From the NCBI GenBank assembly GCA_027483535.1, contig JAIXUN010000002.1:1364001-1428000 (forward strand): 64,000 bases of DNA. The letters are read 5' to 3'. The translations under genes were made by a program, and so were the position numbers. The notes beneath the pieces were generated by a model, which saw only the letters and a list, made by a program, of their open reading frames with translations, was not told where the DNA came from and made no database searches. The stretch comes from a bacterium (GTDB taxonomy: Bacteria; Armatimonadota; Fimbriimonadia; Fimbriimonadales; Fimbriimonadaceae). Shown one piece after another: positions 4,925 through 18,254 of the stretch (the stretch's first letter is position 1; every line of letters begins with the position of its first letter).

Positions 4925-4963
4925 AAGAAAAACCCCTTCGCGGCAGTGCCGTCGAAGGGGTTT
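4925..4963 (-). terminator. Rho-independent terminator of the fasciclin gene
   Basis: Read on the minus strand, AAACCCCTTCG and its complement form a stem (arms about 4929-4940 and 4953-4963) followed by a T-rich run, just after the fasciclin stop codon and before lysS. Confidence 0.85.
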
Positions 4964-12613: not shown

Positions 12614-12689
<76 letters not shown>

Positions 12690-15216: not shown

Positions 15217-15306
15217 AAGTCTCTGTCGTGAATGTTTATTTGCGACTATTCCCGAATAAAAAAATTCTGACCGACCGGTCCACGTAGAGTCCCTTGGGTT
15301 TGTAAT

Positions 15307-15337
15307 TTCAGAAATTTTTGAAAATTCTGAAATTTTT
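15307..15337 (+). promoter_or_regulatory. AT-rich repeat element upstream of the rhodopsin gene
   Basis: An inverted repeat TTCAGAA (15307-15313) / TTCTGAA (15325-15331) overlaps a direct repeat GAAATTTTT (15311-15319 and 15329-15337, spacing 18 bp). It ends about 20 nt before the rhodopsin ATG in an unusually A/T-rich stretch. It could be an operator or part of the core promoter; a palindromic GACCGGTC lies further upstream at about 15273-15280. Confidence 0.45.
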
Positions 15338-15358
15338 AAAAAATCCGCGAGTTCTCAA

Positions 15359-16159
15359 ATGCTGGATATCAACGCTGGTCAATATGAGTTGATTTACAAC
15401 TCCTTCTCCTTCGGCATTGCCGCCATGGGTGCGGCGACGCTGTTCCTCTTTCTCAACCGAACGACGGTTTCTGCGAACTATCGCGCAGCCGTCACCATCT
15501 CGGGCCTGGTAACGGCGATCGCGCTTTACCACTACGTTCGGATCATCGAGAGCTGGGCGGGTGCTTTCACCGTTCTCAACGGCACGATCACCGCGACGGG
15601 TGCGCGATTCAACGATGCGTATCGATACGTCGACTGGTTGCTGACGGTGCCGCTCCTCCTTATTGAGCTCATTTTGGTTATGCGCCTAAGCCGAGCCGAA
15701 ACGACGAGCAAAAGCTTCCGACTAGGCGGCCTTGCGATTCTCATGATCCTCTTGGGATATCCCGGAGAGGTGAGCACCGATCCGACGACTCGCTGGATCT
15801 GGTGGGCAAGCAGCATGGTGCCGTTCCTGTTCATTGTTGTTGAACTGTTTGTCGGACTTAAGAAGTCGATTGACTCGCAGCCTGCGGAAGCGCGGGGGCT
15901 CATCAATAATGCACGCTGGCTCACTATTGTGTCTTGGTGCTTCTACCCGGTGGTCTTCATCCTCCCGATGATTGGCGTCACGGGCGGTGCAGCCACTACG
16001 GCCGTGCAGATTGGCTACACCATCGCCGACGTCGTTGCGAAAGCCGTGTTCGGAGTGTTGATCTACCAAATCGCAGTTCGCAAGTCGGAAGTGGAAGTAG
16101 CGGCACACGCTGCAACTCTAGGTGAAGTAGGTGCGGTAGCTCGCCCTGCCAATGCCTAA
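15359..16159 (+). CDS. Light-driven proton-pumping rhodopsin (xanthorhodopsin/proteorhodopsin type)
   Basis: A 266-residue type 1 rhodopsin with seven membrane helices. The retinal-binding lysine is K228 in helix G (ADVVAKAVFG). Helix C reads RYVDWLLTVPLLLIE: D92, T96 and E103 correspond to D97, T101 and E108 of proteorhodopsin, the DTE signature of outward H+ pumps. L100 is at the spectral-tuning position 105 and predicts green absorption. H58 (ALYHYVRI) matches the His that pairs with the counterion. In helix E, RWIWWASS aligned to bacteriorhodopsin places W149 where antenna-binding xanthorhodopsins have Gly. No Shine-Dalgarno is seen. It heads a cassette with crtY and blh. Confidence 0.95.
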   Translation: MLDINAGQYELIYNSFSFGIAAMGAATLFLFLNRTTVSANYRAAVTISGLVTAIALYHYVRIIESWAGAFTVLNGTITATGARFNDAYRYVDWLLTVPLLLIELILVMRLSRAETTSKSFRLGGLAILMILLGYPGEVSTDPTTRWIWWASSMVPFLFIVVELFVGLKKSIDSQPAEARGLINNARWLTIVSWCFYPVVFILPMIGVTGGAATTAVQIGYTIADVVAKAVFGVLIYQIAVRKSEVEVAAHAATLGEVGAVARPANA

Positions 16160-16176
16160 CAGATAGGACGAACCTC

Positions 16177-17334
16177 ATGAATCGCCCGCACAAAACTGAC
16201 CTCGTTATACTAGGCGGCGGTTGTGCGGGCCTTAGTCTGGCCTCGAGGCTTGCCCAAGAGGGCACCCTCGAGGTTACAGTCGTCGAACCAAGGCCGACTT
16301 ACCTCGACGACCGCACCTGGTGCTTTTGGTCCGATGGTCGCCCGTCTCAAGACACAAATCTTGTCAGCCATCAGTGGTCTCAGGTGAGCGTGTCGGATGG
16401 TGACAAGAGCGTGCGCGTCGATTGCTCTGCAAGACCGTACAGCCTCATTCGCTCGATAGATTTTTACGCTCACCACGCCTCGATCATCGATGCGTCTGCG
16501 AACGTCACCCTCCTATCGGGCGCTCGTGCAGAGACACCAAAACAGGTCGGTTCCCATTGGGAGACGCAAATGGCAGGTGGGGTCATTGAGTCTAAGTTCG
16601 TGGTAGATACGCGTCCGTTCTTGGATAAGAAGGGAATTGAACCGATGCTCTGGCAAAGCTTTTTGGGCGTTGAGATTGAGACGGTTGACGACCTTTTCGA
16701 TGCCGACCGCGCGCAACTCATGAACTTCTTGCCTTCGGCAGGGAATGAGGTGAAGTTTCTTTACATCCTTCCGTTTTCGGCTCGAAGGGCGCTCGTCGAA
16801 ATCACGTACTTCTGCCCTCATCGACCAACTCAAGCCGAAATGTGGGCTGCGTTGAAGGCGGCGCTTCCCGAAAAGCACACGGTTTTGCGACAAGAACAAG
16901 GAGCGATTCCGATGGGGCTTCCTCATGCCGTCACACCCTCCCGGACGAACTATGTCTTTGCAGGCGCCCATGCGGGTTGCACTCGGGCAAGCACTGGTTA
17001 TGCATACAAGCGGATCCAGAAATGGGCCGAGACCTGCGCGGCTTCGATCCATGCCGGAAATCCGCCCCTTGCGGTATCGCAAGATCCCCTATGGATGCGT
17101 CACATGGATCGGATATTCCTGCAAGTGCTTCTGAACGAGCCTGCAAGAGCAGCCGACATTTTCGGTCGACTTTTTCGGGGCGTCTCGCCTCACGAACTCA
17201 CTCGGTTTTTGTCGGACGAAGCAAAGGCAATGGACCTCCTTGCCGTCGTTGCCGCCTTGCCCAAAATGCCTTTCTTGCGTGCTCTCCGGAGATCAACCGG
17301 TCGAGTTGAAGATAGGAGTGTGTGTCCAACATGA
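16177..17334 (+). CDS. crtY: Lycopene beta-cyclase, CrtY type
   Basis: A 385-residue FAD/NAD(P)-dependent cyclase that converts lycopene to beta-carotene. The N-terminal dinucleotide-binding motif is DLVILGGGCAGLSLASRLAQ. Family blocks follow: KFVVDTRP, WQSFLGVEIET with a downstream LMNF, and FLYILPFSARRALVEITYF. Product beta-carotene is the substrate of the next gene, so the cassette makes retinal for the rhodopsin. No crtE, crtB or crtI is in this window, so lycopene must be made from genes elsewhere. It starts 17 nt after the rhodopsin stop and its stop overlaps the blh start region. Confidence 0.92.
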   Translation: MNRPHKTDLVILGGGCAGLSLASRLAQEGTLEVTVVEPRPTYLDDRTWCFWSDGRPSQDTNLVSHQWSQVSVSDGDKSVRVDCSARPYSLIRSIDFYAHHASIIDASANVTLLSGARAETPKQVGSHWETQMAGGVIESKFVVDTRPFLDKKGIEPMLWQSFLGVEIETVDDLFDADRAQLMNFLPSAGNEVKFLYILPFSARRALVEITYFCPHRPTQAEMWAALKAALPEKHTVLRQEQGAIPMGLPHAVTPSRTNYVFAGAHAGCTRASTGYAYKRIQKWAETCAASIHAGNPPLAVSQDPLWMRHMDRIFLQVLLNEPARAADIFGRLFRGVSPHELTRFLSDEAKAMDLLAVVAALPKMPFLRALRRSTGRVEDRSVCPT

Positions 17335-18254
17335 CGATTGCAATACAAAGGATGGCCTTTGTCGCCGTAGCTGGCATCGCTATCTTGGCAGGCTCGTTCT
17401 GGACGCTCCCACCGGTCTCGACCCAAATTGCGCTGAGTGCGGCGCTGATCCTTCTTCTAGGCGTTCCGCATGGTGCGCTCGATATGCTCTATGCCCGCCC
17501 AAAGTTAAAGCTTGTTTCGCTCGGTCGGGTTGCTCTGTTTGGAATCGGCTATCTCGGAGCGGCGGCTTTGGTGGTTTCTCTGTGGATTGCAAGTCCCCTC
17601 GCTTTCTTGGTCCTCTTTCTGATCGGATCTGCCTTTCACTTCAGTGGAGATGCGGAAGAAGGTGCCCCCCTCTCCGCGCTTATCGTCCACGGCTTTGGGG
17701 TGATCGCACTCCCCCAGTTACTCCACCGTCCAGAACTTACAGAGCTCTTTGGAATGCTCACAACTCCAGAAGCCTCTGGATGGGTTGTGCTGGGGCTTGG
17801 GGTTATCGCTATTGTTGTGATTCTTTCAGCGGTCCATGCAGTCTTCTTCTTCCTTTCTAATAAGAGAAGCGGTGAAGCACTAGAAATCTTGACGATCGTT
17901 GCATTGGCGGTTGTGTGCCCTCCATTGATCGCGTTTACGGTCTATTTTTGCTTAGGACATAGCGCGCGGCACATCCTGCGTTCGGCAAAGATCCACAACC
18001 AAACTCTGGCTCGCACGCTCCAGGAAATGCTTCTGCCAATGGTTGGTGTTGCTGTTTTGGTCGGTGCGAGTTGGGCTTTGCGAAACTCTGTTTCCGTAGA
18101 TGCTCGAATCATTCAGATCATTTTTGTCGGGCTCGCTGCACTCACCGCGCCTCACATGCTGCTGGTCGAACCTGTTCGGCTCAGAGGTTGGGCAGTAGCG
18201 AAATCTGAAACCCCAAGAAGGGAGTCCAATGAGACGGAATCGAGGGCTGTTTAA
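17322..18254 (+). CDS. blh: Brp/Blh-family beta-carotene 15,15'-dioxygenase
   Basis: A 310-residue integral membrane enzyme that cleaves beta-carotene into two retinal molecules. Conserved histidines that bind the iron are visible: H50 (GVPHGALD), H106 (SAFHFSGD), H123 (VHGFG), H172 (AVHAV), H213 and H217 (GHSARH), and APHMLLVE late in the chain. The frame opens at GTG 17322, 3 nt after AGGAG, but an ATG at 17331 overlaps the crtY stop as ATGA and is about 12 nt from the same AGGAG; either start may be used. Coupling to crtY is evident. It ends the retinal cassette. Confidence 0.93.
   Translation: MSNMTIAIQRMAFVAVAGIAILAGSFWTLPPVSTQIALSAALILLLGVPHGALDMLYARPKLKLVSLGRVALFGIGYLGAAALVVSLWIASPLAFLVLFLIGSAFHFSGDAEEGAPLSALIVHGFGVIALPQLLHRPELTELFGMLTTPEASGWVVLGLGVIAIVVILSAVHAVFFFLSNKRSGEALEILTIVALAVVCPPLIAFTVYFCLGHSARHILRSAKIHNQTLARTLQEMLLPMVGVAVLVGASWALRNSVSVDARIIQIIFVGLAALTAPHMLLVEPVRLRGWAVAKSETPRRESNETESRAV

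Follow-up and report, generated by a model that had tools for sequence, protein, structure and literature searches.

A rhodopsin gene followed closely by two genes of carotenoid metabolism in an Armatimonadota genome raises three questions: what kind of rhodopsin this is, where its retinal comes from, and how the genes reached this host. For the 64,000-nucleotide stretch of DNA that holds them (the window), we describe the genes, the residues of their products, the predicted fold, the genomic context, and the phyletic pattern. We consider it very probable that the locus is a horizontally mobile xanthorhodopsin cassette in which CrtY and Blh make retinal from host lycopene for an antenna-less outward proton pump. 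In the mechanism that we propose, the host's resident CrtE/CrtB/CrtI-type enzymes would make lycopene, which CrtY would cyclise to beta-carotene and Blh would cleave to retinal; the retinal would bind Lys228 of the rhodopsin, and in light the protein would move protons outwards, with Asp92, paired with His58, as acceptor and Glu103 as donor. Trp149 is proposed to close the carotenoid-antenna pocket, and therefore retinal alone would absorb, most likely green light.

Layout and products of the cassette

The three genes are intact and lie on the + strand in the order rhodopsin-crtY-blh. The rhodopsin gene (15359..16159) is separated by 17 nt from crtY (16177..17334), whose TGA stop (17332-17334) overlaps the ATG of blh (17331..18254) as ATGA. 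An AGGAG about 10 nt 5' of this ATG makes it a likelier start than the GTG at 17322, which is too close to the AGGAG and implies a 13-nt overlap. Open reading frames and family matches, the latter far stronger than chance would give, thus bear out the first-pass annotation on the three genes, their strand, and their coordinates; of the tight spacing that it described, the 17 nt and the existence of an overlap stand, with the ATGA form preferred over the 13-nt one. Going by characterised relatives, the genes are probably co-transcribed. The A+T-rich leader 5' of the rhodopsin gene (15220..15358, + strand) is a probable regulatory region, in which promoter and RNA-element scans found no sigma-70-like promoter or Rfam element; their sole yield was a nearby tRNA-Lys (window positions 12614-12689), which lies 2.7 kb before the rhodopsin gene, with two genes between.

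The first gene encodes a 7-TM retinal protein of 266 aa (PF01036, 7e-43), which we file as a subgroup II xanthorhodopsin on grounds given below. Its nearest solved structures in a PDB sequence search were psXR (9wfa), GR (6nwd), and XR (3ddl), well above the proteorhodopsins (1e-64 to 3e-74 for XR/GR, against 6e-27 at best), and a proteorhodopsin identity was dropped on these values. An AlphaFold2 model (mean pLDDT of 91.8) matched the same structures by fold, with TM scores of 0.89 for psXR, 0.87 for GR, and 0.88 for XR. D92, T96, E103, K228, and H58 align with D96, T100, E107, K240, and H62 of XR; the Schiff-base lysine and the DTE residues recognised in the first pass are accordingly K228 and D92, T96, and E103.

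CrtY (385 aa) matches PF05834 (1e-50; 173 bits against a cut-off of 23.4) and carries the motif DDRTWCFW, a Glu208 that is invariant in 20 homologues, and, from residue 13, the FAD motif GGGCAGL, which had been correctly picked out earlier. It falls below the NCBIfam equivalog cut-offs (TIGR01789, 54 against 215 bits; TIGR01790, 114 against 209.5 bits), so that "lycopene cyclase" is a family-level (Pfam) call backed by context; the earlier naming of this protein as the enzyme making beta-carotene holds at the level of the CrtY family and not beyond it. Blh, a member of the Brp/Blh dioxygenases, scores 161 bits with TIGR03753, whose cut-off is 95.25, and matches PF15461 (7e-44), and the histidines noted in the first pass, His47, His103, His210, His214, and His275, are conserved in 93-100% of 43 homologues. 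A sequence search of the PDB returned no relatives of CrtY or Blh, and their presumed activities follow those of characterised relatives. In one genus-mate, crtY (L016 4287-5275, G008) is split over two frames near 4925-4950 on a contig that ends inside the gene, through either a sequencing error or a frameshift.

The resident pathway and the distribution of the cassette

The host assembly, 3.77 Mb and 99% complete, belongs to Armatimonadota as first supposed, and its genus-mates are members of Fimbriimonas/Fimbriimonadales. The absence of lycopene genes from the locus, and the resulting reliance on genes elsewhere, were also confirmed: a genome search found one phytoene/squalene-synthase-family gene, two crtI-family desaturase genes, and two prenyl synthase genes, none of them near the cassette. 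A CruF-like carotenoid hydratase gene lies directly before one of the crtI-family genes (L139 7508-9792), which suggests that, as well as supplying the retinal branch, the host produces hydroxylated carotenoids of the acyclic kind, and that lycopene is also drained in this direction. No RPE65-type dioxygenase was found in 113 genomes of the order.

The cassette-type rhodopsin is carried by 3 of 20 genomes of the genus and is therefore not a lineage trait; crtY and blh occur in the genus solely beside it (3/20 genomes), and phytoene synthase is present in 17 of the 20. Across the phylum, 22 of 291 genomes pass the rhodopsin cut-off. Blh was found in eight of the 291, all eight rhodopsin carriers, and full-length CrtY matches likewise in eight, seven of them with a rhodopsin (the exception is G080). 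Since crtY and blh track the rhodopsin and phytoene synthase is resident, the cassette acts as a mobile branch for retinal on an existing pathway, and the same pattern offers a simple genomic predictor of the carotenoid makers able to become retinal phototrophs. We lean towards the view that Armatimonadota gained the antenna-less cassette by adding this branch (crtY plus blh) to a resident, otherwise acyclic-pigment pathway, in which case the cassette would be a minimal and readily transferable unit of retinal phototrophy, whose one requirement is a lycopene-making host.

Rhodopsins of Armatimonadota have already been published from hot-spring mats, and some have been expressed (PMC11788075, PMC5459899). 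These xanthorhodopsins share phylum and broad family with ours and have no assigned beta-carotene dioxygenase; rhodopsins without a recognised retinal source are likewise reported for hot-spring Armatimonadota (PMC5459899, PMC11788075). Many other rhodopsins of the phylum lack a recognisable retinal-making enzyme, and the cassette stands apart from them; with it, the Fimbriimonas lineage joins the hosts of xanthorhodopsin cassettes that bring their own.

Several other loci of the phylum show further combinations. In genera g23 and g28 of the same order (L018-L024), Phe-type xanthorhodopsins are present and neither Blh nor an RPE65-type dioxygenase was detected in the genomes. A genome of another family has a same-clade rhodopsin at 74% identity (L143 7986-8723, G107:C206), with no crtY or blh near it and no Blh found in that 87% complete genome. 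In a further family, the rhodopsin that precedes crtY and blh (L152 1672-4641, G084:C150) is unrelated: its identity is about 25%, it has D-T-K in place of D-T-E, and it contains one in-frame TAG. A relative of that genome (L153, G085:C58) keeps crtY-blh with no rhodopsin found before them; G084 and G085 each also have a Gly-type xanthorhodopsin elsewhere.

Gene order and the history of the cassette

The first-pass annotation had taken rhodopsin cassettes to be known in other phyla, rightly, and had called for a census of this gene order in the lineage; the order is not special to it. Among the loci examined, the short order rhodopsin-crtY(-blh) occurs in eight Acidobacteriota, three Gemmatimonadota, two Proteobacteria, and two genus-mates; a longer arrangement, with a spacer of about 3 kb separating crtY from the rhodopsin gene, and one with blh adjoining the rhodopsin are found more often in Proteobacteria. 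By analogy with the Tardiphaga operon XR-crtEIBY-brp (PMC7701988), this spacer may contain crtE, crtI, and crtB. Because the short form, set against the others, requires about eight changes on the rhodopsin tree, it is no marker of one lineage, and we dropped it as such. An XR-crtY-brp/blh operon is reported in Rhodospirillales MAGs (PMC13043013), with the identical three genes in identical order; the differences are the host phylum and the photosynthesis gene cluster that those MAGs also carry. With the cassette, one more lineage joins a gene set that is shared widely and moves horizontally; no new kind of system is involved.

A tree of the rhodopsin with reference clades, as proposed in the first pass, was built by a quick method from 101 rows that include no published subgroup II reference. 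In it, the window protein, its homologues in two genus-mates, and that of a further Armatimonadota genome form one clade (support of 96). This Armatimonadota clade nests in a Trp-type group of Acidobacteriota, Gemmatimonadota, Verrucomicrobiota, and Proteobacteria, phyla that also supply the nearest non-Armatimonadota rhodopsins among the matches listed (65-71% identity; 80 named relatives, whose phylum counts are no census). Proteins with Trp and those with Gly cluster strongly on the tree, with a count of three W/G changes. Other Armatimonadota rhodopsins lie elsewhere, in a Phe-type clade mainly from another family of the order and, for other families, among the Gly-type proteins. The tree therefore points to a probable gain of rhodopsins by the phylum more than once, its deepest branches being weakly supported. 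The Blh tree, also built by the quick method, pairs the window protein with a genus-mate (94) and joins the pair to Acidobacteriota, Gemmatimonadota, and Massilia (95); resolution in the CrtY tree, of the same method, is too poor to speak to co-transfer. A plasmid search returned only relatives below 60% identity.

From the trees and the patchy presence we infer that the cassette was probably transferred. An alternative concerns history and not function: the rhodopsin could have descended vertically within Armatimonadota, with loss from most relatives, in keeping with the clade in which a genome of another Armatimonadota family joins three Fimbriimonas-type genomes and with the lack of mobile elements nearby (none among ten neighbouring genes). 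We regard this as unlikely, since the rhodopsin is absent from 17 of the 20 genus members, and the remaining rhodopsins of Fimbriimonadales share only 42-46% identity with the window protein and fall in other parts of the tree, against 65-71% for other phyla among the matches listed. No clean empty site around the cassette was found in genus-mates, because their homologues of the flanking transporter and redoxin genes sit in different neighbourhoods. The overall G+C of the cassette is not deviant; at third positions it is somewhat under that of the neighbours in crtY (0.59) and blh (0.54). Transfer of such a unit has a precedent in Tardiphaga, whose xanthorhodopsin operon was horizontally transferred (PMC7701988). 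Both cassettes end in crtY and brp/blh, but the Tardiphaga operon also carries crtE, crtI, and crtB and sits among insertion elements near a tRNA-Lys, whereas here the tRNA-Lys is 2.7 kb off and no mobile element was found; as two genes intervene, its proximity in both cases is perhaps a coincidence.

Pump function and the antenna pocket

Our best reading of the rhodopsin, from its residues and family, is a retinal-only outward proton pump with no carotenoid antenna; the direction of pumping and the absorption range are those expected from characterised relatives. The proton pump of the first pass therefore stands as a proton-pump-type protein and becomes, more precisely, a subgroup II xanthorhodopsin without the antenna glycine. 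The host may be a photoheterotroph that ties the making of the pump to its supply of retinal, as the first pass proposed. It is very unlikely that the protein is a light sensor or a slow pump instead of an energy-yielding one: activity is unreadable from sequence, and Octadecabacter showed no growth benefit in light (PMC3646047), but the D-T-E set typical of pumps is complete, no transducer gene occurs among the neighbour genes scanned, and the rhodopsin is linked to its own retinal enzymes as in pump clusters.

The filing under subgroup II follows from the pocket residues and a precedent in GR. Trp149 stands where XR (Gly156) and GR (Gly178) have the antenna-pocket glycine, and in GR the change G178W abolished carotenoid binding and kept pumping (PMC9151804). 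Six further slot positions are listed as changed in every subgroup II member (PMC3646047), and all six differ here: Thr160, Leu194, Leu197, Ala198, Gly201, and Ile205 of XR correspond to M153, W187, I190, V191, C194, and V198. Linked retinal-synthesis genes, another trait of the subgroup, are present as crtY and blh directly downstream. On the tree, an 81-row group (support of 99) and within it a 55-row part (97) unite the window protein with Roseobacteraceae/Paracoccaceae and leave GR, psXR, and SrXR outside, in a sampling without the published subgroup II reference (Octadecabacter). The Octadecabacter proteins pump protons in E. coli, acidifying the cell suspensions under illumination, and their absorption lies at 533-535 nm (PMC3646047).

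That the protein might instead bear an antenna, as the xanthorhodopsins of Salinibacter and Kin4B8 do, with carotenoid supplied by the resident pathway, is scarcely credible, and this reading was rejected on the pocket residues, for although its closest solved structures are antenna-binding xanthorhodopsins and carotenoid genes are present in the genome, Trp149 replaces the pocket glycine, six more slot positions differ, G178W in GR abolishes binding (PMC9151804), and the Octadecabacter proteins failed to bind salinixanthin despite the glycine (PMC3646047). The retinal-only pump, whose lack of an antenna is thus probable from characterised relatives, resembles the subgroup II xanthorhodopsins of Vollmers et al. 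2013 (PMC3646047) in its pump residues, its absent keto-carotenoid slot, and its linked retinal genes. It differs in host phylum and in having only crtY and blh linked, with crtE, crtB, and crtI elsewhere, and it shares Trp at XR position 156 with most members of the subgroup, although not with Octadecabacter itself. Gloeobacter rhodopsin and Salinibacter xanthorhodopsin (6nwd, 3ddl) share with it the fold (TM 0.87-0.88), about 48% identity, the D-T-E set, and the His pair; their antenna pocket has the Gly that Trp149 replaces in the cassette protein, and both bind keto-carotenoids.
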